Shown: one piece after another, positions 13,027 to 53,240 of the stretch
Layout: every line of letters begins with the position of its first letter
How positions within the stretch are numbered: position 1 is the stretch's first letter
Notes under the pieces: generated by a model
The model's input: only the letters and a program-made list of their open reading frames with translations
Told to the model about the DNA's origin: nothing
Databases searched by the model: none
Program-made: the position numbers and the translations under genes
NCBI RefSeq assembly: GCF_026241095.1
Contig: NZ_JAPFGB010000013.1
Location: forward strand, 128,556 to 192,555
DNA length: 64,000 bases
Direction: 5' to 3'
DNA from: Saccharopolyspora sp. NFXS83
Lineage (GTDB): Bacteria; Actinomycetota; Actinomycetes; Mycobacteriales; Pseudonocardiaceae

Positions 13027-13270
13027 CCCTCGTGTCGAAGGCCGTGCCTGGCGGCGAAGCCGCGCGGTGGGCGAGCGAAGCGAAGCCTGCCTTGCGGCCG
13101 AAGGCCGTGCCTGTAAAGCGCGAAGCGCTTTAGCCCACGTCGAAAAGCCGCTCACCGGCGGGTTCTCAGCGGCTTCCTCGCCAGGACGGTTTTTCCCTCG
13201 TGGCGGAGCCACTCGGGAAAAAGATCCCGCAGCGAGGAAGCCGCCGAGGTTCCGCCACCCCACCACCAGA
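13027..13270 (+). repeat. Structured intergenic repeat, copy 1
   Basis: A small hairpin AAAGCGC-GAA-GCGCTTT (13115-13131) is followed by a long nested structure. The outer stem is AGCGGCTTCCTCGC (13168-13181) with GCGAGGAAGCCGC (13232-13244). The second stem is TTTTTCCC (13190-13197) with GGGAAAAA (13215-13222). The apical stem-loop is GTGGCGGAGCCAC (13200-13212). Related copies are at 27.6, 37.6 and 53.2 kb. It sits just downstream of the HTH-deformylase gene, where its fold could also end that transcript. Confidence 0.85.
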
Positions 13271-13283
13271 GCAGAAGACCGGC

Positions 13284-14807
13284 TCAGGAATCCGAAGGAT
13301 AATGCCAGTTCGATCCGGTGCCTCGGTACTGCTCCACTGGTATCGGCGAGACGTCCGGCGCCAGGTGATCGCGGCACAGCACGCCGTAGAGGTGGTCCAC
13401 CTCGTGCGCCACGAGCCGCGCGACACCGCGTTCGAAGATGGTGATGCGCCGTTCCCCGGTGATGTCCTGGTGTTCCACGTGCACCACCACCGGCCGCGGC
13501 ACCAGGCAGCGCACGTCGAAGAAGCTCAGGCATCCTTCGTACTGCTCGTCGCCCTGTTCGCCGGCTTCGATGATCCGCGGGTTCAGCAGCGTGATCAGGT
13601 CGTCGCTGCCGGGCGGGCGCACGATCGCCGCGGCCCGCTCGATGCCGATCTGCGGTGCGGCGATGCCCATGCCCTTGCCGAAGGTGTGCGCTTTCGAGAT
13701 GCGTTGCGTCGCCGAGTGCAACTCGTTGATCACGCGCCGGGCGTCCTCGGCTTCGTCGGGCAGCGTGAACGGGCGGGCCGAACGCCGCAGCATCGGATCG
13801 CCGTCCTGCACGATGCCCAGCGCCGTCATGGTCTCGCTCGGTTTCGGCGGCCCGGACACGGCGGCGGGCGAGTCGTTGCGGAAGTGCCATTCCAGCCGGT
13901 ACCGGGCGTGCAGCGGCGGATCCTCGGTCGACCACGCGTAGACCGTGCGGTCCTGTTCGTGTCGGGTCTCGATGGCGGTGTGGAACGGCATGGACTCGGC
14001 GGTCATCGAGGTGTGCAGCCCCCACACCGCCGGGTCCAGTTCCGTCGGGAAGTTCAACGTCACCGATAACCGCTGCGTGGGCAGCCGCACCGCGCGGCGG
14101 AACCAGTGCCCCCACTTGTCGTCGCTGACGGTGTAGGTGTACTCGATCCACGCGCTTTCGCCCGGGTACAGCGGAAATCGGCCGGAGTCGTTGGCGAACA
14201 GCAGCCACACCTCTTTGAAGGCGTCCCGGTCGTGCTGCACGCTCCAGCGCATCGGTTCTTCGCGCTTCTCCCCGTGCCACGCTTGGAGGTCGATCTCCTC
14301 CCAGGTCAACGGGTTGTCCCGGTAGAGCCGGTTGGAACGTTCGGGGTCGCCGGGGAAGCGGTCCACCGAGACGCGGATCAGGTAGCGGGTGATCGGCTCG
14401 GTGCCGTTGTTGACCAGATGCCGCCGCATGGTGGCGCGGTAGGAACCGTTGACGTAGAACAGTTCCGCGTGATCGTGCTCGACGACCAGCCCGCCCGCGG
14501 GTTCGATGGCCGGTGCGGCGTGCTGCGGTGGGCTGGGTTTGCGCGGCGCGGGAACCGTGTTCTGCTCCCGCCAGGCCCGGCGCAGTGATCCGCCGGCGTT
14601 GAGGGCGCTGTCGGCCGCTTGGGCGAACTCGCGCGACGCGTGCTCACCACCGCTTTCGACCTTCGACACGTACGACCGGCTGTACCCCATCCCCCGAGCC
14701 AGCGCCGATCTGGACAGGCCGCGAACGTCGCGCCACCGCCGGAATTCAGCGACGAACACGTCTTGTTCCGGTGTCGCGTCCAGGTCGGCCTTCGCCTGGC
14801 CGGTCAT
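13284..14807 (-). CDS. XRE-type HTH regulator fused to a peptide deformylase domain
   Basis: The chosen ATG at 14807 (MTGQAKADLDATPEQ, with GGGGATGG upstream) gives 507 residues; ATG 14822 and GTG 14858 are alternatives. Residues about 17-60 form an XRE helix-turn-helix (SRSALARGMGYSRSYVSKVESG). Residues about 100-340 are an uncharacterised beta-rich middle region found in HTH proteins of actinomycetes. Residues about 345-490 are a peptide deformylase with all three motifs: GKGMGIAAPQIG with Gln386, EGCLS with Cys426, and HEVDH at 468-472. The metal ligands Cys426, His468 and His472 and the catalytic Glu469 are all present. It is divergent from a DegT aminotransferase gene. Confidence 0.85.
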   Translation of the reverse strand: MTGQAKADLDATPEQDVFVAEFRRWRDVRGLSRSALARGMGYSRSYVSKVESGGEHASREFAQAADSALNAGGSLRRAWREQNTVPAPRKPSPPQHAAPAIEPAGGLVVEHDHAELFYVNGSYRATMRRHLVNNGTEPITRYLIRVSVDRFPGDPERSNRLYRDNPLTWEEIDLQAWHGEKREEPMRWSVQHDRDAFKEVWLLFANDSGRFPLYPGESAWIEYTYTVSDDKWGHWFRRAVRLPTQRLSVTLNFPTELDPAVWGLHTSMTAESMPFHTAIETRHEQDRTVYAWSTEDPPLHARYRLEWHFRNDSPAAVSGPPKPSETMTALGIVQDGDPMLRRSARPFTLPDEAEDARRVINELHSATQRISKAHTFGKGMGIAAPQIGIERAAAIVRPPGSDDLITLLNPRIIEAGEQGDEQYEGCLSFFDVRCLVPRPVVVHVEHQDITGERRITIFERGVARLVAHEVDHLYGVLCRDHLAPDVSPIPVEQYRGTGSNWHYPSDS

Positions 14808-15054
14808 GGCCACCATCCCCATCGCGTCCGGCGTGCGTGTGCGTGTGCGTGAGCTCACCGTGAGCAGGCGCTCAGCCTACGCACACACCCCTTCGTCGCG
14901 GTCCCCTTGAACCGAGGTTCCCGGACGCCGACAACACGTTTCACACAGATGGCGGGTAGCTGAGCGAAAAATGTCCTCCGAAGTCTTCGCGCGCACAACA
15001 ATCTCACGTCCTCCGGCCGCGTTCGCGCGGTGCGGAACCGAAGGATCTGATCAC

Positions 15055-19153: not shown

Positions 19154-20440
19154 TCAGCTCAGCGCGGCGTCGCGGAGGTCGGTCAGCAGGGTCGGCAGCA
19201 CCGTTTCCTCCTCCACCGCACGGGAAGCCGTGGACATCAGCTCCGCCAGACGCGGATCCCACGGGGTCTCGACGGGGGCGCCCACCAGGTTCGGCAGGTC
19301 CGAGCGGTCCCGTGCGGCGTGGTCGACGGCCTCCCGGTAGTCGGCGGCCGACATGCGCCACAGCCCCACCTCGTGCTCCGACCACAGCGAGCGGGCGATC
19401 GTGACGCCCGCCCAGTCGAAGTCGCCGTGGTAGCGCAGCCGGGCGCCATCCGCGCGCAACCGGTCCAGCAGCGACGACGCCACCGGCGACGGGTGCCCGC
19501 CGAGGCACACCAGCGGATGCCGGATGTCGGCGCGGGCGGCTGCTTCGAGCACCCGGGCGTTCTCGCACACCGCGATCACCGCGCCGGCCTCGACGAGCCG
19601 TTGCGGAGCCGCGGCCAGGTCCCTGAGGGTGAGGTGCGTCGGCAGGCCCAGGCCGGTGCGGGCCCCGACCGAAAGGGACCACGAGTCGTCGCCGGTGAGC
19701 GGCAGCGCCCAGCTCAGCACCGTGCCCGCCACGTCGTCCTGGGCGACCCCGCAGCGCTCCCACAGCGCGCGCCGGTCCCGTTCGCCGCTCGGCGGTTCGA
19801 TGTCGTGCGCCAGCGCCGCCGCGCGCAGCACGATCCTGCTCAGCGCGCCGCCGCTGTCGAGCTCGTGCGGGTCGTCGGCCGCGGTGAGCTCGGCGCGCGA
19901 CACCCACACCGCCGGAGTCGCCGCCGGGTCCAGCGTCAGCGCCGCGAGCACCGTCGCCGCACGTCCGGTGACGTGCGCGAACTCGGCTTCGGCAATGCGG
20001 CCGTACTGGTGCAGCCAGCGCACCCACGGCTCCGCCCACGCCGCCGCGCCCAAGCCGTGCGCGGCCAGCGCGTCCCGCGCCGGGTCGGACTCCTCCGCCC
20101 GCGCCGGGGCGGCCTCGGGGGAGGCGATGGGCCTGCCGTGCAGGATCTCCAGCACCTGCGGCAGGGGCAGCCCGAAGCGGGGATCGGCGCGCAGCACCTT
20201 GTCCAGCTTCACCAGCATGATCCGGGAATGCCCCAGGTACAGCTCGCGGCCGTACACCGCGCTGACCGCGGCGCGCGTCGGTTCGTCAGGCAGCGCGACG
20301 CTGAACCGGTCCGGCCGCTTCGGCGATTCCAGCGCCTCGCGTGCCTGCTCCCAGAACCCGCGCAGCGCCTCACCGCCCCACGCCTCGTGGACGTCCGCGC
20401 GGACCTGGCCGGACACGTGGGCGAGGTCGCCGTCAGCCAT
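19154..20440 (-). CDS. jetD: Wadjet type II nuclease JetD (DUF2399/DUF3323, TIGR02679)
   Basis: This is a 428-residue protein whose ATG lies inside the end of jetC (8-base overlap). The N-terminal DUF3323-like part is followed by a C-terminal DUF2399 TOPRIM-like domain. TOPRIM residues are visible: Glu293 in AVCENARVLE and the DxD pair Asp340/Asp342 in YHGDFDWAG. In Wadjet systems JetD is the endonuclease that cuts circular DNA gripped by the JetABC SMC complex. It is the last gene of the operon. It ends 40 bases from the convergent NB-ARC gene. Confidence 0.92.
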   Translation of the reverse strand: MADGDLAHVSGQVRADVHEAWGGEALRGFWEQAREALESPKRPDRFSVALPDEPTRAAVSAVYGRELYLGHSRIMLVKLDKVLRADPRFGLPLPQVLEILHGRPIASPEAAPARAEESDPARDALAAHGLGAAAWAEPWVRWLHQYGRIAEAEFAHVTGRAATVLAALTLDPAATPAVWVSRAELTAADDPHELDSGGALSRIVLRAAALAHDIEPPSGERDRRALWERCGVAQDDVAGTVLSWALPLTGDDSWSLSVGARTGLGLPTHLTLRDLAAAPQRLVEAGAVIAVCENARVLEAAARADIRHPLVCLGGHPSPVASSLLDRLRADGARLRYHGDFDWAGVTIARSLWSEHEVGLWRMSAADYREAVDHAARDRSDLPNLVGAPVETPWDPRLAELMSTASRAVEEETVLPTLLTDLRDAALS

Positions 20441-23400
20441 CGGTGCGCTCCATGTCCTGACCGTCCCACGTGGTGTGCGTGCAGGCGATGCCGTGGCCGC
20501 TGCGCGGGCGCAGCACGTCGTAGATGTGCATCTTCGGGATCTTCGGCGACACGCCCCAGCCGCTGGGCCAGGTGATCAGCCAGTCCATGTCCAGGTCCAC
20601 CAGCAGCCCCAGCATCCGCGCGATCGTCGGATCGTCGAGCCGCTCGAACGCCTCGTCCAGCAGCACCAGCCGCAGCGGCCCGCGCCCGCCGGAGGACACG
20701 CTCACCGCGTCGTAGAACGCCGCCGCAGCAGCGAACAACGTCACGTAGGAGATCAGCCGCGTCTCGCCGGACGAGAGCTGCCGCAGCCGCCGCACGCGGG
20801 GCTTGCCCTCCGGTCCGGTGTCGCGCACGCGCACGGTGAACGCGAACCACGAGCGGTAGTCCAGCGCCCGCGACAGGATCTCCGCGTAACCGCCGGAGGC
20901 GCTGTCGCGTTCGGCCTCGATGAGGTCGGTGAACACCTTGCGCAGCAACGAGTCCTGGTCGTCGCTGCGATCGGCGAACGGGGTGCGCACCAGGTCGATG
21001 GCCTGCTTGATGTCGTCGCCGAGCGACGGCGAGGGCTCCCACTCCAGCTGCACGTGCACGCCCTGGCTGGAACGGGCGCCGTCGAGCACCTCGTTCATCC
21101 GCTTGCACAGGTTCTCCGCCACCGTCACCTGCCCGCGCAGCCGCTCGGCGAGGTCGCGGATCAGGTAGTCGGCGAAGATCGACCGGTACCGCTCGTTGAG
21201 GAATCCGCGCTGTTCGGCGAGGCGTTCGGCGACCCGGCGGGCCGCGTCCGCCACCGGCTGCGGCCCTTCCTCGCCGGTCACCGTGACGGTCAGCAGGCCC
21301 TGCTGGTCGCCCGCGGTGATGTCGTAGCCGCCGCTGAGCGACTGCTGCAACGCCTGGAACCGGTTGAGCACCGCGGTCTCGCCCGCCGTCTTGCGGTCCG
21401 CGGCGGCGGCCAGCAGCTCCGCGGCCTCCGCCGGGCCGGGTGGTTCCACGGCGCGCGGACCGGGTTCGGCGCCGTCCTCGGCGGCCGGGAGCACGTCGGC
21501 CGCGGCCCACACCCCCGGCACCCGCAGCGCGGCGGTGAACGCGGACGCCGCGGTCTCGGCGTCGGATTCCCGCCCGGCGAGCTGGGAGTGCTTGGTCTCC
21601 CACTGGGTTTCCAGCCGCACCACCTGTTCGCGCGCGGTGCTGATCCGCTCCCGCGCGGTCGGCAGGTCCTTGCGCAGCCGGGCCCGTTCGCGTTCCAGCT
21701 CGCCGACCTTGCCGGAGATCTCCTGCGCGGCGCCGCCCACGGCGTCGCTGAGCTCGGCGAGGCCGGTGGCCTGCTCGGTGTGCTCGGCGCAGCGCTGCTC
21801 GGCCTGCGACTCGGCCTCCATCCGGTCGGCCACCGCGGCGTCGTGGTGCAGCGCGATGTCGCGCAGGTCGGCCAGCGTGGCCAGGCATCGGGATTCCACG
21901 ACCTCGTGCAGCGCGTCGATCGCCGAGCGGGCTTCGGTCGCGGCCCGGTTCGCGTGCTCCAGCGCCTGCGTCTCCGGTGGCAGCTCCGCTTCCCCCGCGG
22001 CGCGCACCAGCTCGGAGCGGGTGGCCTGCCAGCGCTGATCTGTCTGGTCGAGCTCGCCGCGGGCTTGCTTGGCGTGCCGGTCGGCGTCCTCGGCCGCGTC
22101 GGTGGCCGTGGCGACCTGGGCGTGCGCGGTGACCAGGTCGGAGTCGTCGGGGAACGATTCCAGGTGCCGTTCCAGGGATTCGCCGTGCTCGGCGGCGTCG
22201 CGGTGGCGCCGTTCGACCTCGCCGATCCGCACGCGCAGCGCGGCGAGCTCCTCCTCCAGTTCCGCGATGCGCCGGGCTCGGGAGGCTTCGCGGGCGCCCG
22301 CGCCGACGTACTCGGCGGATTCCTTCTGCCACGCTCCGGAGAGCACCCCGGCCTGCCAGTGGCCGTCGGTGCCCACCACCAGGCCCGGACCGTCCACGAT
22401 GGACACGGAGGCGAGCAGGGAGCCGATGTGCTCGGCGGGAACGGGACCGTCCGGCTCCGGTGCGGGCACCAGCAGGTCAGCGAGCGTGCCCGCCGAGCCC
22501 TCCACGCCCGGAACGGCCAGCACGTCCGCTAGTTCGGCGACGGTGCCCTTCTCCGAGACCCACGCGTTGAGCAGCCCGCTCGCCTGCAGCGCCGCCTCCA
22601 GCCCGGCCCGCTGCGCCTCGTCGAGCGACGGCCGGAAATCCACCAGCCGGTAGAACGCGCGGCCCGTCTCCTCGGGCCGGTCCGCCGCCGCCCACTCCGG
22701 GCGCTGCGGGGTGCGCTCCACCCCGGCGCGCAGCTGCGCGAGCTCCTGCTCGCCCGTGCGCACCCGGTCGCGGAACTCGCCGAGTTCCCGCTCCACCGCC
22801 GAAATCCGCTGCCGGGCCTCCTGCAACCGCGGCCGTGCCCAGCGCCGCGCCTGCTCCAGCGCTTCCCGCGCCACGGCCCGCTCTGCCAGCAGCCGGTCCA
22901 CCGCGGGCACCTCCGGCACCGGATCGTCCACAGCGGACTCCGGGTGCTCCGAACCCCAGCGCTGCGCCCGCTGCCGCCACTCGTCGGCGGCCTCCGAGAG
23001 GCGCTGCTGCGCTACGTTGCGCCGGCCCACGGCCTCCGTCGAGATCAGCTGGGCTTGGCGCGCTTGCTGCTGGAGCTTCGTGACCTGCTCCCGCTGCCGG
23101 TCCAGCTCCACGGCCTGCTGGTGCAGCGTCAACGTCAGCGCGCCGCGGCGCTGCGCCACCGTGCTCGCCTGCGCGGCCCGGTCCGCCGCCGCGCGGAAGC
23201 GCTGCGCCAGCTCGTCGGTGTCGACTTCGGGGGCGCTGAGCCGGTCCACGTCCACCGGACCGGCGTCGGGCTCCGGGACGGTCCGCACCCGGTCCGGGGT
23301 GCTGATCGCCTCCGCCTTCGGCACCTCCGGCGGGCGCGGCACCAGATCGCCGTCCAAGCCCGCCGCCGCCAGCTGCCGGTTCGCCCGCTGCGCCGCCTGC

Positions 23401-24626
23401 TCCGCGGACTCCGCGTCGCCCACCAGCCTGCGCAGCGTGCCCAGCACCGACTCCGCCGAACGCTCCTCCTGCGCGCGGTGCCGCGCCGCGGTCTCCAGCG
23501 CCGACACCGCGGCCGAACGCGAGCCCTCCACGACCCGTTCCCGGTCCCGCAGGTTCTGCAGCTCCGCGTACGCCGGGTGCGAGCGCAGCGACTCGATGCT
23601 CGACTCCAGCGTGCCCTCGCGCTGCTCCAGCTCGGCGACGGTGCGCTGCGCCGAATCCCGCTCCTCGCGGTGCCCGGTGACCTGCTTGTCCAGCTTCGCC
23701 AGTTCCTTGCGCAACGCCGCGAGCCGGTCCTGGGCCGAACGCGTCGACTCCGCGCGCTCCCGCAACGCTCCCAGCGCGTAACCGGAGTACGTCGACAGGA
23801 ACGCGCTCAGCGCCTTGTCCGCGCCGGTGAGCCGGACGATGTTCTCCCGGATCGACTCCAGGTCGTCGAAGGAGCTGGCCAGCCGTTCGATCAGCGCGGG
23901 CTCCAGCGGCGGCAGCGCGTCCGAGAGGATCTGCTCCAGCTGCCCCTCCAGCACCTTCAACCCGACGTCCGGGTTGCGCAGCGTCCGCTGCAGGTGCAGC
24001 AGGTCCCCGTAGCGGGCCGCGGGCACGCCGTAGACCTGCGCGGCGATCTTCGCGCGGAAGCCCTGGTCGTCGAGCACGCAGTCCGCACCCAGCAGCTCCC
24101 GCAGCTGAGCCGGGCCCAGCGGAACCCGCTCCGGGCCCACCAGGTGCAGGTTGTGGCCCACCCGGCGACCCGTGATGAACCGCCACGAGTCGCTGATCGC
24201 CTGCGAAGTCTTCGACGCCTTCACGCCGACACCGCAGGTCAGGAATTCCTCGCCGCCGTCCGGGGTTTCGCGGCGCAGCTCCACCCAGGCGTAGCCGATG
24301 CGGTTCGGGCCGCCGGGGTACTCGTCCAGCATCAGGCGCCGGATGCTGACCGTGTCGAAGCCCTTCGAGCCCAGCTGGCGCAGATCGCCGTCCAGGCACA
24401 GCGGCAGCAGCAGCTCCAACGTCCGGGACTTGCCGGAACCGTTGGTGCCCTGGAAGATCGCGCGCCCGCCGGAGAGGTCGAAGGTGTTCTCCGCGTACTG
24501 CCAGATGTTCACGATCCCGCCGCGGTGCAGCCGCCAGCGGTGCACCGGTCCCGCGGACAGCGTCGCGTCGCCCGGCTGCTCCGGGGAGGCGGGCTGCACC
24601 GCTGCGTTCGCGTCGTCGGGGCTCAC
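20433..24626 (-). CDS. jetC: Wadjet type II SMC-like ATPase JetC (TIGR02680)
   Basis: A GTG at 24626 overlaps the jetB stop (GTGA) and gives 1397 residues, as expected for the family. The Walker A GTNGSGKS lies at residues 60-67. Long heptad-rich coiled-coil arms occupy most of the middle (repeated E/R/A-rich stretches), interrupted by a hinge-like region around residues 640-750. The C-terminal head carries the ABC signature LSSGETRLISYV and Walker B LRLVLLDEAFERLDD. It is the MukB/SMC-type motor that extrudes and recognises plasmid DNA. It is complete, with no frameshift seen. Confidence 0.94.
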   Translation of the reverse strand: MSPDDANAAVQPASPEQPGDATLSAGPVHRWRLHRGGIVNIWQYAENTFDLSGGRAIFQGTNGSGKSRTLELLLPLCLDGDLRQLGSKGFDTVSIRRLMLDEYPGGPNRIGYAWVELRRETPDGGEEFLTCGVGVKASKTSQAISDSWRFITGRRVGHNLHLVGPERVPLGPAQLRELLGADCVLDDQGFRAKIAAQVYGVPAARYGDLLHLQRTLRNPDVGLKVLEGQLEQILSDALPPLEPALIERLASSFDDLESIRENIVRLTGADKALSAFLSTYSGYALGALRERAESTRSAQDRLAALRKELAKLDKQVTGHREERDSAQRTVAELEQREGTLESSIESLRSHPAYAELQNLRDRERVVEGSRSAAVSALETAARHRAQEERSAESVLGTLRRLVGDAESAEQAAQRANRQLAAAGLDGDLVPRPPEVPKAEAISTPDRVRTVPEPDAGPVDVDRLSAPEVDTDELAQRFRAAADRAAQASTVAQRRGALTLTLHQQAVELDRQREQVTKLQQQARQAQLISTEAVGRRNVAQQRLSEAADEWRQRAQRWGSEHPESAVDDPVPEVPAVDRLLAERAVAREALEQARRWARPRLQEARQRISAVERELGEFRDRVRTGEQELAQLRAGVERTPQRPEWAAADRPEETGRAFYRLVDFRPSLDEAQRAGLEAALQASGLLNAWVSEKGTVAELADVLAVPGVEGSAGTLADLLVPAPEPDGPVPAEHIGSLLASVSIVDGPGLVVGTDGHWQAGVLSGAWQKESAEYVGAGAREASRARRIAELEEELAALRVRIGEVERRHRDAAEHGESLERHLESFPDDSDLVTAHAQVATATDAAEDADRHAKQARGELDQTDQRWQATRSELVRAAGEAELPPETQALEHANRAATEARSAIDALHEVVESRCLATLADLRDIALHHDAAVADRMEAESQAEQRCAEHTEQATGLAELSDAVGGAAQEISGKVGELERERARLRKDLPTARERISTAREQVVRLETQWETKHSQLAGRESDAETAASAFTAALRVPGVWAAADVLPAAEDGAEPGPRAVEPPGPAEAAELLAAAADRKTAGETAVLNRFQALQQSLSGGYDITAGDQQGLLTVTVTGEEGPQPVADAARRVAERLAEQRGFLNERYRSIFADYLIRDLAERLRGQVTVAENLCKRMNEVLDGARSSQGVHVQLEWEPSPSLGDDIKQAIDLVRTPFADRSDDQDSLLRKVFTDLIEAERDSASGGYAEILSRALDYRSWFAFTVRVRDTGPEGKPRVRRLRQLSSGETRLISYVTLFAAAAAFYDAVSVSSGGRGPLRLVLLDEAFERLDDPTIARMLGLLVDLDMDWLITWPSGWGVSPKIPKMHIYDVLRPRSGHGIACTHTTWDGQDMERTDG

Positions 24627-25876
24627 CGTGAACCGTCCTCTTCCAGATCGTCGAACAGGGACAGGCCCGGCGGCTCCGGTGCCGGCGCGGGTTCGGGCTC
24701 CCGCCCGGGCACGGGCGTGGCGTCCGGTTCCGGCAGCCACCGGTGCGCGGCCGGGCTCAACCACCAGGTGAGCTCGCCATGATCCTCCCCGGTGGTGGCG
24801 GTGCCGTCGGCGGCCTCGCCGCGCAGCACGCCGAGCCGCCGCAACAGGTCCGCGACGGACCGCACCAGTTCCGCCGGTTCCTCGGTGGCCTGCCGCGACC
24901 ACGCCGCCGGGTACGACTCGATCAGCTCACCGCACACCTCGGTGAGATCGTCCCAGGTCACGGGGTGCCTGCCGTCGGGCTCCCTGGGGTCACCGCATTC
25001 CAGCAGCCGCGGCAGCGCCAGCAGCGCGACGCGCGCGACCGTGCCGGTGCCGGGGAACAACGTGTCCGTCAGGTAGTCCTCCGGGTCGCTGACCACGACG
25101 CCCTCGGAGCGGACCTCGGTGACCAGGCCGAAGAACCGCTCCAGCAGGCGGGATTCCACGCCGAAGTTCTTCAGCAGCCACTCCCGCTGCTCGGCGGGCA
25201 GGTCCGCGTAGAGCACCACCGGGTCCTCCACCAGCCGCCGCCGCACCACGTGCTCCACGCTGCGGGGACCGGCCTGCGCGGCGGACGCCACCAGTTCGGC
25301 GGGCCCGGCCGAGGCGCCGATCGGCCCGGCGGGCAACTGGCCGAGCAGGTCGGTGTCGATGGTGATCAGCGCCTCCGCGGTGGAATCAGTCGCGGTCACG
25401 GTGCCCTCGGTCTCGCTGATCACCCCGAGCGCGACCAGGTGCCGCAGCGCGGCGGTCAGCGCGCGCCGATCCGCCGGATCGTCCACCACCGGCACGCCCG
25501 CCTCCACGGCCGCGGCGCGGACATCGATCACCAGGCGGGACAGCAGCACCTGCCTGCCGATGCCGGTCAGCGTCGCCAGCGTCAACGCCACGTACGCGTA
25601 GCCGCGCGGCGTCAGGCCGGGCTCGCCGCGCGTGGCGTCCGCGCCCGGACCGGCCTTGTAGAGCCGGGCGAACCGGCGTTCCACCACGAGCCGGTAGCCC
25701 AGCAGCGAGGAGAACACCTCGTGCAAGGCCGCCCGCTGCCGGTAGATCATCGGCAGCAGGTCCCCGTCCGGAGCGCCCTCCCGCAGCAGCGGGCGGCGCA
25801 GCAGCGCCCGCGCGCACCGCACCACGTTCGAGGCGTCGATCGAGGACAGCTCGTCGAAGGCCTTGGTCGCGCTCAT
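24623..25876 (-). CDS. jetB: Wadjet type II KITE-like subunit JetB (DUF2398, TIGR02678)
   Basis: ATG 25876 (MSATKAFDELSSIDASNVVRCARALLRRP) overlaps the jetA stop by 4 bases and gives 417 residues. The family's N-terminal winged-helix block (LLPMIYRQRAALHEVFSSLLGYRL) and the central RRLVEDPVVLYADLPAEQREWL are clear, matching TIGR02678. The C-terminus is a low-complexity Pro/Glu tail followed by LSLFDDLEEDGSR, probably a peptide that docks on a partner. It corresponds to the MukE-like component of the JetABC complex. Confidence 0.92.
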   Translation of the reverse strand: MSATKAFDELSSIDASNVVRCARALLRRPLLREGAPDGDLLPMIYRQRAALHEVFSSLLGYRLVVERRFARLYKAGPGADATRGEPGLTPRGYAYVALTLATLTGIGRQVLLSRLVIDVRAAAVEAGVPVVDDPADRRALTAALRHLVALGVISETEGTVTATDSTAEALITIDTDLLGQLPAGPIGASAGPAELVASAAQAGPRSVEHVVRRRLVEDPVVLYADLPAEQREWLLKNFGVESRLLERFFGLVTEVRSEGVVVSDPEDYLTDTLFPGTGTVARVALLALPRLLECGDPREPDGRHPVTWDDLTEVCGELIESYPAAWSRQATEEPAELVRSVADLLRRLGVLRGEAADGTATTGEDHGELTWWLSPAAHRWLPEPDATPVPGREPEPAPAPEPPGLSLFDDLEEDGSR

Positions 25877-27507: not shown

Positions 27508-27599
27508 GGTCGGCCACGATAACCCGAGCCGCCGACACTCCCTGTCAAGAGCCCGGCTAAGGGTTCCTGCTGAGTGACCTGCGTGGTGGGTCACTCAGC

Positions 27600-27695
27600 G
27601 GAACCTCAGCGGCTCCCTCGCTGCGGGATCCATTTCTCAAGTAGCTCCCTACTCAGCGAAATGGCTGTCCTCGCGAGGGAGCCGCTGCGAACCCG
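27600..27695 (-). repeat. Structured intergenic repeat, copy 4 (minus orientation)
   Basis: The outer stem pairs CAGCGGCTCCCTCGC (27607-27621) with GCGAGGGAGCCGCTG (27673-27687). The second stem pairs CCATTTC (27630-27636) with GAAATGG (27658-27664). The apical part read on the minus strand is GTAG-GGAG-CTAC. The order and the conserved inner bases (GAGGACAG on one side, GATCCCGCAG on the other) match copies 1-3, but most stem bases differ and both partners have changed together. It lies about 90 bases upstream of jetA. Confidence 0.85.
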
Positions 27696-27709
27696 CCGGT
27701 GGTCGGCTT

Positions 27710-27770
27710 GCTCGAGCTGGTCGCTGCTCATCGGCTTCGCCGCTGACAGGACAAGGATCAAAGAGCGTTC
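27710..27770 (+). repeat. Short intergenic repeat, second family (CGGCTTCGCCG core)
   Basis: The string GGTCGCTGCTCATCGGCTTCGCCGCTGAC recurs with small changes at 29150-29175, 35548-35580, 44618-44655 and 49030-49060. Its core folds as a small hairpin. Here it directly follows the structured repeat and precedes cobD. No coding potential was recognised in the 360-base gap 27508-27867. Confidence 0.6.
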
Positions 27771-34375: not shown

Positions 34376-35490
34376 TGCGCGTCGTCGTCGAAGCCGATGG
34401 CGGTTCCCGCGGCAATCCGGGACCCGCCGGGTGCGGCGCGGTGGTGCGCGGCGCGGACGGCGCGGTGCTCGCGGAGCGCTCGCGCTGGCTCGGTGTCGCG
34501 ACGAACAACGTCGCTGAGTACGAGGGCCTGCTGTGCGGGTTGCGCGCGGCGGCGGAGCTCGGCGCCACCGAGGTCGACGCCCGGATGGATTCCAAGCTCG
34601 TCGTCGAGCAGCTCTCCGGCCGGTGGAAGATCAAGCACGAGGCGCTGCGATCCCTCGCGGAGCAGGCGAAGGAGCTCGTCGCCGGTTTCTCGGGGGTGAC
34701 CTTCGAGTGGATCCCGCGGGCGAGCAACGCGCACGCGGACCGGTTGGCGAACGAGGCGATGGACACCCGCGACGACGCCGAGCGCACCGGGCAGGCCGAC
34801 GCCGCGCCCGCGACGACCTCGGACCGGGTGCGCCCCACCGGCTGGAACGGTGCCCTCGGTGCGCCGACGAAGTTGCTGCTGGTGCGGCACGGGCAGACCG
34901 CGATGTCGGTGGACCGCCGCTACTCGGGTCGCGGCGACGTGCCGCTGACCGACCTGGGCGAGCGCCAGGCTCGGGCGGCGGCGGCGCGGCTCGCCGAGAT
35001 GGATGGCGTCGTCACCGCCGACGGAGCGGCTCCGGTGCTCGCCTCCCCGCTGGGGCGCACCCGGCAGACCGCTGAGGCCGTCGCCGCCGCCGCCGGCAGC
35101 GAGCTCACGTTCCACGACGGCCTGCTGGAGACGGATTTCGGCTCTTGGGAGGGCCTGACCTTCCTGGAGGCGGCGGAGAAGTACCCCGAGCTGCACGGGT
35201 CCTGGCTCGGCGACTCCACCGTCGAACCGCCCGGCGGCGAGAGCCTGGAGGCCGTGTTCCACCGGGTCGCTGCCGTTCGCGACGAGATCTTGGCGCGGCA
35301 CGAGGGGCGCACGGTGATCGTCGTCAGCCACGTCACGCCGATCAAGGCGCTGCTGCGGCTCGGCCTCGACGTGGGGCCGTCGCTGTACTACCGCCTGCAC
35401 CTGGACCTGGCGTCGCTGTCGATCGTCGAGTTCTACCCGGACGGCAACGCCTCCGTCCGCCTGGTCAACGACATCTCCCACCTCGCTTGA
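34375..35490 (+). CDS. Bifunctional RNase HI / acid phosphatase (Rv2228c-like)
   Basis: The ATG at 34375 shares one base with the previous stop and gives 371 residues. Residues 1-130 are an RNase HI domain (VVVEADGGSRGNPGPAGCGA with Asp8, NNVAEYEGLLCGL, and the metal Asp of MDSKLVVEQLSG). Residues 165-371 are a histidine phosphatase with LLLVRHGQTAMS (Arg171-His172-Gly173) and VVSHVTPIKALLRL. The M. tuberculosis protein removes RNA from hybrids and has an alpha-ribazole-phosphatase-like second domain, fitting the cobalamin genes here. No truncation is seen. Confidence 0.95.
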   Translation: MRVVVEADGGSRGNPGPAGCGAVVRGADGAVLAERSRWLGVATNNVAEYEGLLCGLRAAAELGATEVDARMDSKLVVEQLSGRWKIKHEALRSLAEQAKELVAGFSGVTFEWIPRASNAHADRLANEAMDTRDDAERTGQADAAPATTSDRVRPTGWNGALGAPTKLLLVRHGQTAMSVDRRYSGRGDVPLTDLGERQARAAAARLAEMDGVVTADGAAPVLASPLGRTRQTAEAVAAAAGSELTFHDGLLETDFGSWEGLTFLEAAEKYPELHGSWLGDSTVEPPGGESLEAVFHRVAAVRDEILARHEGRTVIVVSHVTPIKALLRLGLDVGPSLYYRLHLDLASLSIVEFYPDGNASVRLVNDISHLA

Positions 35491-35539
35491 CCACCTGTTT
35501 TTGATCTTGTCGTGCGTGGTGGAACCTCAGCGGTGCCGA

Positions 35540-35632
35540 TCGCGAGGGTGGTCGCTGCTCAGCGGCTTCGCCGCTGTCGAGGTGACGACACCGAGCGCAC
35601 AACGGGAGATCGAAGACCGGCTCTGAGGACGG
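35540..35632 (+). repeat. Second-family intergenic repeat
   Basis: GGTCGCTGCTCAGCGGCTTCGCCGCTG is followed by a stretch ending in GGGAGATCGAAGACCGGCTCTGAGG. The same arrangement recurs at 49020-49115 and in part at 44612-44680. CAGCGGC-TTC-GCCGCTG is a perfect hairpin. It lies in the 221-base gap after the RNase H gene and could serve as its terminator. Confidence 0.65.
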
Positions 35633-37147: not shown

Positions 37148-37225
37148 TCAGCAGGACGAACAGCAGGCACCGTTGACGCGCGCGTAGTCCACGTAGCGGC
37201 AGCGGGTCAGCGGTGCGGTGGTCAC
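37148..37225 (-). CDS. Cysteine-rich putative leader peptide (25 residues)
   Basis: A GTG at 37225 opens a 25-residue frame: VTTAPLTRCRYVDYARVNGA followed by CCSSC and stop. The R-x-Y/H-V-D-x-x-R motif and a terminal cysteine run are the marks of actinobacterial cysteine-responsive leader peptides that precede sulfur-assimilation genes. Ribosome stalling at the cysteine codons when cysteine is scarce would raise expression of the FMN reductase downstream. The mechanism is inferred from the family; only the peptide and its position are seen. Confidence 0.7.
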   Translation of the reverse strand: MTTAPLTRCRYVDYARVNGACCSSC

Positions 37226-37317
37226 CGGCGCAGTACACCAAGCCCCGGAAAACCGGTCAATCCACTCCCACCCGGCGAGATCCGTCCCGAAGCCCCGCCC
37301 GCCGAAACCAAATCCTC

Positions 37318-37680
37318 GCGGCGAAGCCGTGCAGTAGGCGGCGAAGCCCGCGAAGGGCAAGCGAAGCGAAGCCGTGCCTGGCGGCCGAAGGCCCGTGCCT
37401 GGCGGCGAAGCCGTGCAGTGGGCGAGCGAAGCGATGCTTGCCTTGCGGCCGAAGGCCGTGCCTTTGCGGCGAAGCCGTGCAGTGGGCGAGCGAAGCGAAG
37501 CCTGCCTTGCGGCCGAAGGCCGTGCCTGTAAAGCGCGAAGCGCTTTAGCCCACGTTGAAAAGCCGCTCACCGGCGGGTTCTCAGCGGCTTCCTCGCGAGG
37601 ACAGCTTTTTCCCTCGTGGCGGAGCCACTCGGGAAAAAGATCCCGCAGCGAGGAAGCCGCTGAGAACCCGCCACCCAACC
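37318..37680 (+). repeat. Structured intergenic repeat, copy 2, with a 64-bp tandem array
   Basis: From 37402 a unit starting GCGGCGAAGCCGTGCAGTGG repeats with a 64-base period (37402, 37466), with shorter, worn units before it. Then come the small hairpin AAAGCGC-GAA-GCGCTTT (37530-37546), the outer stem CAGCGGCTTCCTCGC (37582-37596) with GCGAGGAAGCCGCTG (37648-37662), the second stem CTTTTTCCC (37605-37613) with GGGAAAAAG (37631-37639), and the apical GTGGCGGAGCCAC. Open frames on the minus strand here are by-products of the repeat. Confidence 0.88.
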
Positions 37681-37831
37681 ACCAAAGCAACACGAGCCGT
37701 GGAAGCAATCACTAAAGAAGACCTTCCACCGCACCACAGCAACCACACACCCAAACCGGGGAAGGCCTCAAAGCCGCCCACACGGCAAGCCGGGGAGACT
37801 GCGAAGCCCCCACCACGAGGCGGGGAAAGGT

Positions 37832-39104: not shown

Positions 39105-39110
39105 TCGCCA

Positions 39111-39701: not shown

Positions 39702-42579
39702 GCGCCAGCCCCAGGGCCCCGGCGCGCCCCAGCGTGCCCCGCAAGGCAGGGGCAAGGCGCGGGGCAAGGCGAAACGGCAGGACCGCAGGCTTCCTGACGA
39801 ACAGTCGTTGCCGAGCTACACGCCTTCCATCGCCGCCAGGTCGATCGACGGTCACCTGCTGCGCACCGGCCAGGACGTGTTCGCCTGGTACCGGCTGTCG
39901 CCGCAGCGCTGGTCCTTCCGCTCCGATTCGCAGCGCCAGGACCTGATCGCCGCCATCGCCGGGCAGTACGCGGAGCTCCAGGGCCGCTGGATGCACCTGC
40001 GGGTCACCAGCCGCCCGTACCCGATCCGGATGTGGGCGGAGGCGCACGTGCACAACGCGCGCGGCGCGCTGCCCGACGCCCCCGGCGCGCTGAGCTTCGA
40101 CGACTACATGGTCGGCGAGCAGCAGCAGCTGATGGGCCGCTCCATGGCGGAGAAGGAGGTCTACCTCGGCGTCCAGGTGCAGACCCGCAACGTGGTGGAC
40201 CGCGCCGTGGAACGCGCCGCGCCGCTGCTGCGCCGGGTGTTCCCGGAGGCCGTGGACGCCGAGCTCGTCGCGCTGGACAGCGAGATCGAGCACCTGGACC
40301 AGGTGATCGGCTCCGCCGGGCTGGACGGGCGTCCGGTGACGGCCGAGGAGATCTCCTGGCTGATGCACCGGTCCTGCTCGCTGGGCCTGCCCGCGCCGCG
40401 CAACCTGCCCGCCGTGCCGGGCGCGGAGTGGGAACCCGAGGACCTGGCGTCGTTCACCGACGCCGCCGACATGTACCAGGAGCCGTACTCGCCGACCGCC
40501 ACGGTCCGCGGGCGCACCGGCTCCAACGCGGGCATCACCCGGCACGTCGCCGTGCTGACCGTCGGCCAGACCCACGGCCTGCAGATCCCGGAGATCGACG
40601 ACCCGTGGATCCAGCACTCCGACCGGCTGCCCGCTCCCGTCGAGTGGTCCGCGCGGATCTACGTGCGCCGCCCCGAGGACGTCGGCGGCGAGTTGCAGCG
40701 CCAGATGAACAAGGTGCGCTCGCAGGTCCGGCACTACACCGAGGAGCACGGCCTGGAGCCGCCGACCTCGCTGGCCCGCCAAGCGGGCCGGGTGCTGGAG
40801 ATCGACGACGAGATGACCACCGGGTTCACCGCGCTGGCCACCCGCGTCCGCTCGTGGTGGCGGCTGGCGGTGTCCGGGCCGACCGAGCGCGACGCGCTGC
40901 GCCTCGCGCAGCAGATCCTGGACCTGTACAAGCCGAAGGTCGCCATCGAGCACCCCGAGGCGCAGTACGCGATGGCCCGCGAGTTCATCCCCGGTGAGCA
41001 GCTGGCCTCCGGCGCGTACATGCGGCGGGGTTCGGTGCTGTGGGCCGCGGCCTCGGTTCCGCAGGCCACCGCGGAGGTGGGCGACCGGCGCGGCATCCTG
41101 CTCGGCGAGACGTGCACCGCGACCCGGCGCCCGGTGGCCTGGGACCCGTGGATGGCGCAGGAGGTCCGCGACGCCTCGGGCCTGACGGCGATGGTCGCCG
41201 GTCTGGGCGGTGGCAAGTCCTTCCTCGGCGGCGGCACCGTCTACAAGACCTTGCGGGCCGGCGCGCACTGGACGCTGCTGGACCCGTCGGGGCCGCTGGC
41301 GGAGCTGTGCAAGCTCCCCGAGCTGCGGCCGTACGCGCGGCCGATCAACCTGCTCAACGCCCAGCCCGGCATCCTCAACCCGTACCGGGTGGTGGCGGAG
41401 CCGCAGCTGGAGCACTTCGTCGACGAGGACGACCCGGAGCGCAGCTGGCGCCGGGAACGCGCGCTGTCGGCCGCGACCCGGCGGCGGCTGGTGCTGGACG
41501 TGCTCACCGGCCTGCTGCCCTACGAGGTCGCGCGGCTGCCGCAGACCCGGATCGTGCTGCTGCGCGCGGTGCGGGCCGTGGGCGGCCGGCCGGACGCGCA
41601 TCCGGGCATGGTCTTCGAAGCGCTGCGCCGGGACGCTTCCGAGCACCACGAGCACGCGGTGGTGGTCGCCGACTTCCTCGACGAGATCCGCGAGCGCATG
41701 TCGCTGCTCATCCCGGAGGCCGACGCCGACCCGTACTCGGAGACCCGCGAGGACCGGCTGACGGTGCTCACGATGGCGGGGCTGGCGCTGCCGAAGGACG
41801 GCGTCGGGCGCGAGCACTGGACCGACGCGGAAGCCCTCGGCGTGGAGATGCTGAACCTGGCGGCGTGGCTGACCCAGCGCTCCGTCTACGAGCGGCCGAA
41901 GGACGAGCGCAAGGGCGTCTGGATCGACGAGGCGTTCTTCCTGTCCGAGGTCCCGACGGGCCGGGTGCTGATGAACCGGTTCGCCCGCGACTCGCGGAAG
42001 TGGAACGTGCGGGTGCTGCTGTCGAGCCAGATCCCGGCGGACTTCCTGCGCATCCAGGGCTTCGTGTCGCTGCTGGACTCGGTGTTCGTCGGCAGGCTCG
42101 ACGACGAGCAGGCCCAGGCGGACGCGTTGCGGTTGCTGAAGGTTCCGGTCGGCGCGGGCTATGAGCAGGTCGTCTCCGCGCTGGGGCGCAGGCCCGGACC
42201 GGCGCGCAACAGCACCGAGCGGGACCGGGCGCCGCGGCAGTTCATCTTCGGCGACGGCGCCGGCGGTGTGGAACGCATCCGCATCGACTTCGGCGGCCCG
42301 CACTTGGAGCACCTGCGCGACGCGCTGGACACCACTCCCGGCAGCCGCGAAGCCGATCTGGACCAGCGCGCGCTGCCCGGATCCGGTGGCGCGGCGAACT
42401 CCGACACCCCGCCGCGGCCGTCGCCGCCGCCGGTGCCGGAGGACGACTACTCGGACGACATCGACGGCTTCGACGAGTTCGAACTCGAAACCGTCGGCAT
42501 CGGGCCGGGCGAGGAACGCGGCAACGGAACCGACCGCTCGCAGCAGCGGCCCGGTCAAGGCGGAGACGAAGTGCGGTGA
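39676..42579 (+). CDS. VirB4/TraC-like ATPase of a type IV secretion system
   Basis: GTG 39676, 6 bases after AAGGAGG, gives 967 residues; the frame stays open upstream, but that part overlaps the previous gene. After a basic, low-complexity first 40 residues come an N-terminal partner-binding domain and a C-terminal RecA-like motor. Walker A is GLGGGKS with Lys514, and Walker B is GVWIDEAFF with Asp751/Glu752. VLLSSQIPADFLRIQGF is the usual motif after Walker B. The C-terminus is acidic and Pro-rich. It should power assembly or substrate transfer at the membrane. It couples by GTGA to the next gene. Confidence 0.85.
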   Translation: MFGRRRGGERQPQGPGAPQRAPQGRGKARGKAKRQDRRLPDEQSLPSYTPSIAARSIDGHLLRTGQDVFAWYRLSPQRWSFRSDSQRQDLIAAIAGQYAELQGRWMHLRVTSRPYPIRMWAEAHVHNARGALPDAPGALSFDDYMVGEQQQLMGRSMAEKEVYLGVQVQTRNVVDRAVERAAPLLRRVFPEAVDAELVALDSEIEHLDQVIGSAGLDGRPVTAEEISWLMHRSCSLGLPAPRNLPAVPGAEWEPEDLASFTDAADMYQEPYSPTATVRGRTGSNAGITRHVAVLTVGQTHGLQIPEIDDPWIQHSDRLPAPVEWSARIYVRRPEDVGGELQRQMNKVRSQVRHYTEEHGLEPPTSLARQAGRVLEIDDEMTTGFTALATRVRSWWRLAVSGPTERDALRLAQQILDLYKPKVAIEHPEAQYAMAREFIPGEQLASGAYMRRGSVLWAAASVPQATAEVGDRRGILLGETCTATRRPVAWDPWMAQEVRDASGLTAMVAGLGGGKSFLGGGTVYKTLRAGAHWTLLDPSGPLAELCKLPELRPYARPINLLNAQPGILNPYRVVAEPQLEHFVDEDDPERSWRRERALSAATRRRLVLDVLTGLLPYEVARLPQTRIVLLRAVRAVGGRPDAHPGMVFEALRRDASEHHEHAVVVADFLDEIRERMSLLIPEADADPYSETREDRLTVLTMAGLALPKDGVGREHWTDAEALGVEMLNLAAWLTQRSVYERPKDERKGVWIDEAFFLSEVPTGRVLMNRFARDSRKWNVRVLLSSQIPADFLRIQGFVSLLDSVFVGRLDDEQAQADALRLLKVPVGAGYEQVVSALGRRPGPARNSTERDRAPRQFIFGDGAGGVERIRIDFGGPHLEHLRDALDTTPGSREADLDQRALPGSGGAANSDTPPRPSPPPVPEDDYSDDIDGFDEFELETVGIGPGEERGNGTDRSQQRPGQGGDEVR

Positions 42580-48880: not shown

Positions 48881-48929
48881 CCTCCGCCGGAACCTGCCTT
48901 CGGTCTTGTGCCGCGTGGCGGGCGGGTGG

Positions 48930-49125
48930 CGGAACCGCAGCGGCCTGCTCGCCGCGACGCGCCGTCCCGTGCGCGGCGAAATCGCCGTCCTCGCGAGGAA
49001 CCCGCGGCGGTGCCCGTTGCTCGCGTGGTCGCCGCTCCGCGGCTTCGCCGCTGACGGGACGACGACCACGCGCACGCCGGAACGGGAGGTCGAAGACGGG
49101 CTCTGAGGTTCCGCTCCCCGCACCG
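48930..49125. repeat. Decayed structured repeat (copy 5) with a second-family repeat
   Basis: On the minus strand, CCTCGCGAGGACGGCGATTTCGCCG (48985-49010) keeps the hallmark GCGAGGAC and an inner stem GGCGA/TCGCC, while the outer stem is eroded. From 49020 the second-family repeat GGTCGCCGCTCCGCGGCTTCGCCGCTGAC runs to GAGGTCGAAGACGGGCTCTGAGG, and part is repeated at 49135-49160. The 384-base gap 48881-49264 contains no recognisable gene. Confidence 0.65.
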
Positions 49126-51441: not shown

Positions 51442-51792
51442 CTTTGACCGTCCCTTTCCTCAAGGCCCGCACTGCGGGTCCCTGGGCGTTATGCGACGTC
51501 TTGCGCTTGCCAGGGTCGCACGCCCCGGCGCCGCCCAGGAGCCCTCGACGACACACGTCACAGCTCGGCGGAGGCCGCCGGGGCGGCTGCGAGACCGGTG
51601 TTGCATCGATGCATCGGCGTTGCGCCCAGTGGAGCCAGGTGGTGGCAACCGAACGCAGCAGGCAGCGGCGTCCGTACGCACCTTCAGCCCAGCGCGTTGG
51701 GCCCTCCGGGTCAAGTCAAGATCATCTACTGGACCTGGTTCGGGCATTTTGCCTAGCCTGATCGCGTTGCAACGCACCAAAGAGGGAGCAGC
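51442..51792. other. Divergent promoter region between panB and a P450 gene
   Basis: No gene is supported in these 351 bases. A perfect palindrome TGCATCGATGCA lies at 51602-51613, with a related GTTGC...GCAAC arrangement nearby. A TAGCCT about 40 bases before the P450 start could be a -10 element. Open frames here are shadows. Confidence 0.3.
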
Positions 51793-53007
51793 ATGACCGC
51801 GGCCAAAGAAGCTCCAGACATCTTGTCCCCGGAATTCGCCATCGATCCGAACCCGTCCTACCAAGTGCTGCGAGATGATTTCCCCCTGCTCTGGCACGAA
51901 GCGACCCAGAGCTACATCGTGTCGCGCTACGCGGACGTGAAGCGGGCGTTCCGCGAACCGGTCTTCACCACTCAGAACTACGACTGGCAGCTCGAACCCG
52001 TGCACGGCCGCACCATCCTGCAGCTGGACGGCAGGGAGCACGCCGTCCGCCGCGCGCTGGTCGCTCCGGCGTTCCGCGGCAGCGAACTGCACGAGAAGTT
52101 CCTGCCGGTGATCGAGCGGAACTCCCGGGCGTTGATCGACCGGTTCCGCGGCACCGGGAGCGTGGACCTCGTCGCCGACTACGCGACCAAGTTCCCGATC
52201 AACGTGATCGCCGACATGCTGGGGCTGCGGGAGGAGGATCGCGGCCGGTTCCAGGGCTGGTACACGGCGATCATCGCGTTCCTCGGCAACCTGAGCCAGG
52301 ACCCGGACGTCGTCGAGGCGGGCGTGCGGACCCGCACCGAGTTCGCCGAGTACATGATCCCGGTGATCCAGGACCGCCGCGCGAACCTGGGCGACGACCT
52401 GCTCTCCACGTTGTGCACCGCGGAGATCGACGGCACCCAGATGAGCGACGAGGACATCAAGGCGTTCTGCAGCCTGCTGCTCGCCGCGGGCGGGGAGACC
52501 ACGGACAAGGCCATCGCAGCCCTGTTCCTGAACCTGCTGCAGCACCCGGACCAGTTCGCCGCGGTGCAGGCCGACCGCGATCTGATCCCGCAGGCCTTCG
52601 CCGAGACGCTGCGCTTCTCCCCGCCGGTGCACATGATCATGCGCCAGCCCGCGGAGGACGTTGAGCTCAGCGGTGGCGTGGTGCCCAAGGGCAGCACGGT
52701 GACCTGCCTGATCGGGGCGGCGAACCGGGACGACGGGCACTACTCGCACCCGGACCGCTTCGACGTGTTCCGGGAGGACCTGCCCGCGCGCACGGCGTTC
52801 ACGGCCGCCGCAGACCACCTCTCGTTCGCCCTGGGCAGGCATTTCTGCGTCGGCGCCCTGCTGGCGAAGTCCGAGATCGAGGTCGGCATCAACGACCTGC
52901 TCGACGCGATGCCGGACGCCGAGTTGGCCCCCGGCTTCGACCCCGTCGAACAGGGCGTGTTCACCCGAGGCCCGCAATCGGTCCCGGTCCGCTTCACCCC
53001 CAACTGA
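51793..53007 (+). CDS. Cytochrome P450 (canonical motifs)
   Basis: A 404-residue soluble bacterial P450 starting after GAGGGAGCAGC. The I-helix carries AAGGETTDK, with the acid-alcohol pair. The K-helix carries the ETLR of EXXR, followed by FSPPVHMIMR. The heme loop is FALGRHFCVG, with Cys352 as axial ligand. All catalytic elements are intact, unlike the two P450s of the neighbouring conservon. No ferredoxin gene is adjacent. Substrate and CYP family are unknown. The first gene of its own unit, it ends ahead of a structured repeat. Confidence 0.93.
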   Translation: MTAAKEAPDILSPEFAIDPNPSYQVLRDDFPLLWHEATQSYIVSRYADVKRAFREPVFTTQNYDWQLEPVHGRTILQLDGREHAVRRALVAPAFRGSELHEKFLPVIERNSRALIDRFRGTGSVDLVADYATKFPINVIADMLGLREEDRGRFQGWYTAIIAFLGNLSQDPDVVEAGVRTRTEFAEYMIPVIQDRRANLGDDLLSTLCTAEIDGTQMSDEDIKAFCSLLLAAGGETTDKAIAALFLNLLQHPDQFAAVQADRDLIPQAFAETLRFSPPVHMIMRQPAEDVELSGGVVPKGSTVTCLIGAANRDDGHYSHPDRFDVFREDLPARTAFTAAADHLSFALGRHFCVGALLAKSEIEVGINDLLDAMPDAELAPGFDPVEQGVFTRGPQSVPVRFTPN

Positions 53008-53029
53008 CCGAAGCCCCAACACCGGCGAA

Positions 53030-53240
53030 GCCTGCCTCGAAGCGAAGCCGTGCAGTAGGGCGGGCGGAGCCACGCCTGCCTTGCGGCCGTAGGCCGTGCT
53101 TGTATGCGCGAAGCGCATGGCCCACGTCGAAAAGCCGGTCACCGGCGGGTTCTGAGCGGTCTTCTCGCGAGGACAGCAATTTTGCGTGTGGGGAGCCACT
53201 CGGAAAATTGATCCCGCAGCGAGAAGACCGCTCAGGTTCC
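53030..53240 (+). repeat. Structured intergenic repeat, copy 3
   Basis: A small hairpin ATGCGC-GAA-GCGCAT (53104-53118) is followed by the outer stem GAGCGGTCTTCTCGC (53154-53168) with GCGAGAAGACCGCTC (53219-53233), the second stem CAATTTT (53177-53183) with AAAATTG (53204-53210), and an apical GTGG-GGAG-CCAC. Compared with copies 1 and 2, many stem positions are changed on both strands so that pairing is kept. It lies between convergent P450 genes. Confidence 0.88.

Follow-up and report, generated by a model that had tools for sequence, protein, structure and literature searches.

Four intergenic hairpins in a 64,000-nucleotide stretch of Saccharopolyspora sp. NFXS83 DNA (contig NZ_JAPFGB010000013.1, positions 128,556 to 192,555; the whole stretch is called the window below) raise the question of what kind of element changes the two sides of its stems together from copy to copy. 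A reading of the letters alone, the sequence-only reading, had placed four structured copies here and had proposed a terminator, a protein-binding RNA, or the terminal structure of a mobile element. Reading and folding each locus confirmed all four copies, and chance hairpins were ruled out by the folds, which reached z values of -7.1, -8.0, -11.1, and -10.0 (copies 1 to 4) relative to 200 dinucleotide shuffles, none of which folded as well. We are confident that the copies belong to a mobile structured repeat. This repeat is probably a non-autonomous chromosomal family of the Pseudonocardiaceae, of the general kind of repetitive extragenic palindromic (REP) sequences and miniature inverted-repeat transposable elements (MITEs), which would form a new lineage and may have moved as a single-stranded DNA (ssDNA) hairpin. 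The family is apparently undescribed, as had been supposed: no Rfam family matched at gathering score (three microRNA-family matches lay far below it and were taken as chance), and no description was found in the literature searched, a scope that leaves out most subscription papers.

Architecture and distribution of the repeat

The element is larger than first described and consists of a small upstream hairpin (H1), a linker, and a long palindrome (H2) of ∼110 bases. The outer stem of H2, which had been given as 13 to 15 pairs, is present but longer, since it runs on through a G.T/T.T/T.G stretch. The apical loop, described as GGAG type, has that form in copies 2 and 4; copies 1 and 3 instead have a triloop, GGA, with a closing C-G pair. 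As for the inner loop, GAGGACAG is exact in copies 2 to 4, whereas copy 1 has CAGGACGG. H1, which had been seen to change on both sides, proved to be a regular part of the element: a search of 172 copies that required at least 6 pairs and allowed any loop of 3 to 6 bases found it in 132 and gave none in 40. Copies 1 and 3 have AAAGCGC-GAA-GCGCTTT, copy 4 has ATGCGC-GAA-GCGCAT, and copy 2 has a variant, TCAGCGGCGAAGCCGATGA.

Copy 1 has its H1 at 13115..13131 (+; AAAGCGCGAAGCGCTTT, GAA loop) and its H2, with the inner loop CAGGACGG / GATCCCGCAG, at 13152..13264 (+; 113.9 bits against covariance model R1). Copy 2 lies on the minus strand, with H2 at 27589..27702 (124 bits) and the H1 variant, read from the sequence, at 27728..27746. 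The H1 of copy 3 (37530..37546, +) again has a GAA loop, and its H2 (37567..37680, +; 130.1 bits) has an unbroken outer stem of 25 pairs. Copy 4 comprises an H1 with a GAA loop at 53104..53118 (+; ATGCGCGAAGCGCAT) and an H2 at 53139..53251 (+; 124.1 bits). Beyond these four full copies, the window contains two remnants, one at approximately 35490..35580 (no strand given), where the foot of H2 and H1 persist and the H2 core is gone, and a decayed H2 copy at 48920..49023 (-; 31.5 bits with R1, E value of 0.0013). In the clade of the window, arrays of further small hairpins precede H1, giving a composite repeat of up to ∼480 bases. Such an array of small GNA-loop hairpins (GCGAAGCC type) lies 5' of copy 3 at 37314..37529 (+), where repeat matches start at position 3315 of the query 34000-42000, and belongs to the composite repeat of the window's genome (G000) and of the genomes G001 and G002. 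The 3' tail of this long composite repeat occupies 37681..37792 (+), several matches ending at query position 3793.

In an alignment of 66 copies, variable stems surround the inner loop GAGGACRGC / GATCCCRCAG, a constancy that is partly built in because the selection pattern fixes most loop letters. GAGGACAGC and GATCCC were, however, kept in all nine copies found by BLAST in nine relatives (L040 to L048). Among ten low-copy examples that the covariance model found and the pattern missed (L130, L131, L133, L140, L142, L143, L145, L146, L148, and L149), GAGGACAGC was present in 9; GATCCC was present in 7, usually with GGAG rather than GCAG after it. The inner loop is well conserved between genera, not absolutely fixed. 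On the gene strand, the foot of H2 carries GTRG in 169 of 226 copies (GTGG in 106 and GTAG in 63; 7 of 233 copies gave no frame match).

In some Saccharopolyspora and Amycolatopsis copies, the outer arms are exchanged and the inner loop is kept. One or both outer arms are replaced, one of them ending GGGGGCCGC, in the Saccharopolyspora copies L163, L172, L186, L199, L220, and L224 and in L240; the retained inner loop suggests that arms may be exchanged as modules. In two other Saccharopolyspora copies (L177 and L192) and in L234, a second flank sequence that recurs, GTGAAGGGCACCT, brackets the element as an inverted repeat and possibly represents a further repeat family.

The whole-genome pattern count was made for G000 (6.9 Mb in 70 contigs), where GATCCCGCAGCGAG with at most 2 mismatches gave 494 matches, versus 64 for a reversed control pattern. 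Several contigs of this assembly start inside a copy of the element (e.g., C13:18, C14:39, C20:20, C32:9, and C36:18), so the repeat probably breaks short-read assemblies. A first sample gave matches in 10 of 41 genomes, namely, G000, all 5 of the other genomes sampled from its genus, and representatives of four more genera. A covariance model made from 27 copies then placed the family in 79 of 297 Pseudonocardiaceae genomes and 15 of 46 genera, from one copy upward, and it matched G000 only in a class-wide sample of 296 genomes; because both surveys used strict filters and scored no more than 12 candidates per genome, weak relatives may be missed. Carriers among the matches listed in the pattern scan are Saccharopolyspora, Amycolatopsis, Saccharomonospora, Prauserella, Actinopolyspora, and Halopolyspora (80 of at least 94 loci were named, and four loci from other organisms, judged chance by sequence, were left out). 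Copy counts mix orthologous and paralogous copies, degenerate copies are undercounted because most copies were chosen with a pattern that fixes inner-loop letters, and 2 of 35 rows were left out of alignment A1. Only 2 of 172 copies fall within predicted genes, so that a protein-coding repeat was rejected; genes are our own calls from codon usage, and GatB, DnaA, and several neighbor names were recognized by eye. A phage or plasmid element was likewise rejected, since no record in phage and plasmid collections matched and none of 11 pattern matches in viral contigs showed the element's arms on inspection.

Filled and empty sites

Synteny between the window and G001, G002, G003, and G005 showed that the element occupies some sites and is missing from others. 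G003 lacks copies 2 and 3 at the same sites, and the site of copy 4 is filled in G001, G002, and G003. At the cleanest site, G001 has 241 extra bases directly after a TGA stop codon and the junction in G000 is uninterrupted; the flanks of this site, sought for an outgroup, were not found in the stretches examined from G002, G003, and G005. The joined gene-end flanks of 20 G001 loci, used as the query, yielded ten aligned loci. Three of these (L281, L283, and L284) are filled in G001, whereas neither G000 nor G002 has the element there, a pattern that favors gain in G001; two more (L276 and L322) are empty in G002, and the other five (L286, L321, L266, L267, and L273) are filled, altered, or re-oriented. 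Six filled/empty site pairs were thus found in sister species in total, one of them exactly behind TGA, and, as two of three species lack the element at three sites, we infer that the differences are mostly gains. Separately, the element at L267 in G001 is oriented opposite to that in G000 and G002 (L341 and L332), by inversion or independent insertion.

Covariation of the stems

That the stems co-vary between copies was borne out by 66 diverse copies (alignment A4, from which 5 atypical of 71 representatives were left out, which tends to raise pairing). Paired cells made up 89.8% of 2,549, versus 75.3% after shuffling, and cells with a double change numbered 361, versus 127 in shuffled and 70 to 112 in slid controls; none of 500 shuffles reached either observed value. 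Both sides had changed in 26 of 39 pairs, and many single pairs show three or four pair types.

The same pattern was visible at one gene end (GatB-like by eye) in genus g50 of the Prauserella clade. Between three genomes with one model hit each (G114, G087, and G134), the outer stems diverge there through paired changes that come in blocks, with loops and spacing constant and with the last 900 bases of the gene 91 to 93% identical. A fourth genome, G165, which has two model hits, is losing the stem, so that one of the four copies compared is decaying.

The covariation is real, but the further claim that it reflects selection on RNA or ssDNA structure is not established by it, because correction of palindrome arms by template switching, a process described as able to create and maintain hairpin stems (PMC8794818), gives the same pattern. 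The block changes at the GatB-like site are predicted by selection on structure and also by template switching. The covariation could accordingly be mutational, with template switching homogenizing the arms of any long palindrome and constraint acting only on the inner loop and the sequence tags. We take this as a serious possibility, if somewhat the less probable one. Besides the Prauserella-clade site, where stems change in blocks and loops do not, it draws on window copy 3 and L045, in which the right arm complements the left exactly (AGAACCCGC in place of AGGTTCCGC); copy 3 looks like an arm corrected by template switching. Yet such correction would erase both the asymmetric inner loop, which persists across genera, and the GTT/GTT mismatch, which is mostly retained (in 52 and 50 of 66 copies in two G.T columns). 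The orthologous low-copy palindromes of the Prauserella clade offer clean material to separate selection from template-switch repair, and this repair is a general caveat for RNA discovery based on covariation.

Placement, folded strand, and mobilization

H2 faces a stop codon in 179 of 227 copies with genes on both sides. In 124 of these 179, the stop lies 49 to 69 bases from the core end, a 21-base window that 2,000 random placements, with H1 counted in the footprint so as to leave room for it, filled on average 26.6 times and at most 43 times. The spacing holds within single genomes (15 of 22 copies in G000 and 33 of 47 in G001, with mean expectations of 2.6 and 4.0). In tandem regions, 96 copies have H2 toward the stop and 32 toward the start (P = 1.3e-8 if copies are taken as independent; 13 versus 4 within G000), and of 83 convergent regions, 73 have the H2 side nearer to its stop. 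A CTAG/TAG target, an idea taken from a few Amycolatopsis copies, failed, as the flanking stops are mostly TGA, near background. Origin by inverted duplication of the gene end, an idea prompted by high-scoring copies, is unproven: own pairs scored modestly above cross pairs (means of 9.84 versus 8.18 without arrays and 8.01 versus 7.92 with them), and several of the high-scoring pairs share sequence with each other.

In the window, copies 1 and 4 obey the stop rule and copies 2 and 3 do not. In copies 1 and 4, 19 bases separate the 3' end of H2 from a stop codon, that of gene 13284-14822(-) and that of gene 53271-54533(-), respectively. Copy 2 sits between the divergent genes 25873-27507(-) and 27988-28812(+), and copy 3 sits behind RNase P RNA. 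The gene next to copy 1 encodes a protein that has a helix-turn-helix at its N terminus and a peptide deformylase domain at its C terminus, a fusion that to our knowledge is not common. Copy 2 is ∼80 bases upstream of the first gene of a Wadjet type II operon (19154-27507, -) comprising JetA2, JetB2, JetC2, and JetD2, all strong PADLOC matches. The RNA adjoining copy 3, through its own 3' end, is a bacterial RNase P RNA of class A (37831-38228, -; 280.6 bits), the sole Rfam match in the window at gathering score.

We then considered which strand folds. The loops of the 132 H1 hairpins are GNA in 96 copies (GAA 45, GCA 34, GGA 13, and GTA 4), GNNA in 28 (GTCA 11, GCCA 8, GGTA 5, GCGA 2, GATA 1, and GCTA 1), and other in 8, counts that are not independent between related copies, with all four N bases and several stems represented. 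Only 2 of the 28 GNNA loops meet the GNRA rule of RNA. GNA and GNNA loops with G-C stems are described as extraordinarily stable DNA mini-hairpins (PMC4686876), and that the H1 loops follow the DNA rule favors ssDNA of the strand antisense to the neighboring gene. Of 49 well-paired rows, 40 have the top strand of H2 as the more stable one under DNA folding parameters and 30 under RNA parameters; for H1 the top strand is favored in only 11 of 42, and these parameters may omit a special GNA bonus. We judge the chances that ssDNA is the recognized form to be about evenly balanced. Among the options first offered, the H1 loops and the presence/absence differences weaken RNA and terminator and leave ssDNA and a mobile element as the better ones.

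We propose that the working form would be ssDNA, most likely of the strand antisense to the neighboring gene, folded into H1 and H2. An enzyme, which in the best-sampled species would be neither a Y1 transposase nor a reverse transcriptase, would recognize the hairpins and the inner loop and join the element to the sequence that closely follows a stop codon, with H2 toward the gene. Much more tentatively, the family might represent a new class of mobile DNA, a two-hairpin ssDNA element distinguished by its c(GNA)g / c(GNNA)g DNA mini-hairpins and its conserved asymmetric loop, which an enzyme outside the known HUH-Y1 and reverse-transcriptase mobilizers would deliver in one orientation to the few bases behind stops.

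Tight spacing and orientation behind stop codons could also mean that H2 is a host element of the 3' untranslated region, acting in the mRNA of the upstream gene as a terminator, an exonuclease block, or a regulator of translation termination, and kept by selection. Ribosome stalling has been reported for E. coli REPs that lie within 15 nucleotides of a stop (PMC12306157), and the compensatory stem changes in G114, G087, and G134 lie at an orthologous 3' end. We nevertheless consider this explanation unlikely: the element is present or absent between sister species behind otherwise alike genes, 218 of 297 Pseudonocardiaceae genomes gave no match (under the strict filters), and the decaying copy is one of four orthologs. 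Moreover, the neighboring genes are diverse (from Pfam for 8 window genes and by eye for others), only 44 of 233 copies have TTTT within the 12 gene-strand bases that follow H2, and the H1 loops obey the DNA rule on the other strand.

Several observations weigh against a mobile ssDNA repeat as we propose it. The stems change in step in situ at the Prauserella-clade locus, which mobility alone does not explain, and the core is also lost at times, as in the remnant at 35490-35580, where G001 has a full element at the same site, and at L321 in G000. Neither the clean site nor any of five further pairs (with diverged flanks) shows an evident target-site duplication, no sharp common ends were seen, and the outer inverted repeats of several copies are of at least two sequence types and differ between copies. 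The bias toward the stop in tandem regions is not significant in G001 alone (19 versus 12; P = 0.28). The asymmetry of G.T over A.C, by which the folded strand might be told, is weak, at 98:68 outside three conserved G.T columns, 73:67 with one more column removed (P = 0.67), and 46:20 in the 49 best-paired rows; the outcome depends on the choice of rows. In the loci examined (2.4 Mb with overlaps, short of a whole-genome scan), we found neither a mobilizing gene, sought as an unpaired left half followed 0.3 to 5 kb on by a right half, nor a parent transposon with the same ends. The replichore bias expected of IS200-type ssDNA transposons is lacking in G001 (12+/17- and 18+/19-) and G002 (14/16 and 12/20), partial in G003 (2/9 and 8/7), and clear only in G018 (2/11 and 8/2), where it may just follow gene orientation; these counts are among the best hits, the terminus was set at half length, and only G002, G003, and G018 begin with a gene that looks dnaA-like by eye. 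Insertion at replication forks is weakened by this inconsistency, not decisively. Finally, Y1_Tnp (PF01797) occurs in 14 of 32 carrier genomes versus 2 of 19 without element hits, and ten Y1_Tnp loci (∼3.4 kb each, from 10 of the 16 genomes with matches) contained no 3' core, right arm, or H1, with an isolated 9-base 5'-core match at 7 of the 10, one of which also matched the left arm.

The enrichment of Y1_Tnp among carriers, together with high copy number, extragenic position, the GTRG head, and proximity to stops, would suit a classical REP or bacterial interspersed mosaic element mobilized by a RAYT (Y1 tyrosine) transposase that escaped detection or has recently been lost, RAYTs being described as obligately associated with REPs (PMC2817692). 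We find this very improbable: G000 to G003, three of them single-contig genomes, had no Y1_Tnp match, and G001 among them holds elements missing from G000 and G002; one survey records only TnpA subclass 1.1 in Actinobacteridae (PMC6006769); the Y1 loci lack the parts listed above; and the palindrome is ∼3 times longer than the 20 to 40 bases of REPs. A retroelement mobilized by reverse transcriptase was rejected because carriers G001 to G003 have no RVT_1 (no match in G001 to G005; above the cutoff, one match in G000 with an E value of 1e-12 and some in carriers G072 and G180). That each copy is transcribed into a small RNA of its own, antisense to the upstream gene, is equally improbable, for, despite the strong fold on that strand and a slight G.T excess there in the best-paired rows, there are hundreds of copies with no Rfam match, the H1 tetraloops avoid GNRA, and no shared promoter-like stretch upstream of H1 was seen by eye among the matches listed.

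On the mobile-repeat reading, genomes in which no RAYT is detectable have been colonized by a REP-like family with a built-in preference for gene 3' ends. If found, its enzyme might be a new ssDNA recombinase or embody a new principle of target choice, and it might provide a tool for safe insertion behind coding regions.

Several known systems resemble the element in part. Intrinsic terminators are hairpins behind stop codons whose stems co-vary; unlike them, H2 is mostly without a following T run, has a long interrupted stem with a conserved loop, and is mobile. Integron attC sites are imperfect ssDNA hairpins just behind a gene in a fixed orientation, and the element shares the imperfect hairpin and the single orientation behind a gene, whereas no attC core motif was recognized by eye in the consensus, no cassette arrays were seen, and the flanking genes look like ordinary chromosomal ones. 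Like MITEs and ERIC-like intergenic repeats (PMC2759123), the family consists of noncoding units of ∼200 to 250 bases, with inverted ends in several copies and presence/absence polymorphism; in contrast to MITEs, no shared terminal repeat or target duplication was found in the copies and sites compared, the internal architecture is conserved rather than the ends, and orientation is linked to stops. The family also resembles REPs and GTAG-tagged palindromes as portrayed in PMC2817692 and PMC3733652, with many extragenic palindromic copies, a GT(A/G)G foot on one strand, a noncomplementary middle, some copies against stop codons, and stems that vary with pairing kept. It differs from them in the conserved two-sided inner loop of its far longer H2, in its DNA-type H1, in four repeat-rich species without a Y1 transposase, and in that we found it only in the Pseudonocardiaceae. 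The family is unusual in its size, its conserved loop, its DNA-type H1 loops, and its placement, which is tied to stop codons and to orientation, and also in that species rich in it have no detectable REP transposase; it is ordinary in being an interspersed palindromic mobile repeat.

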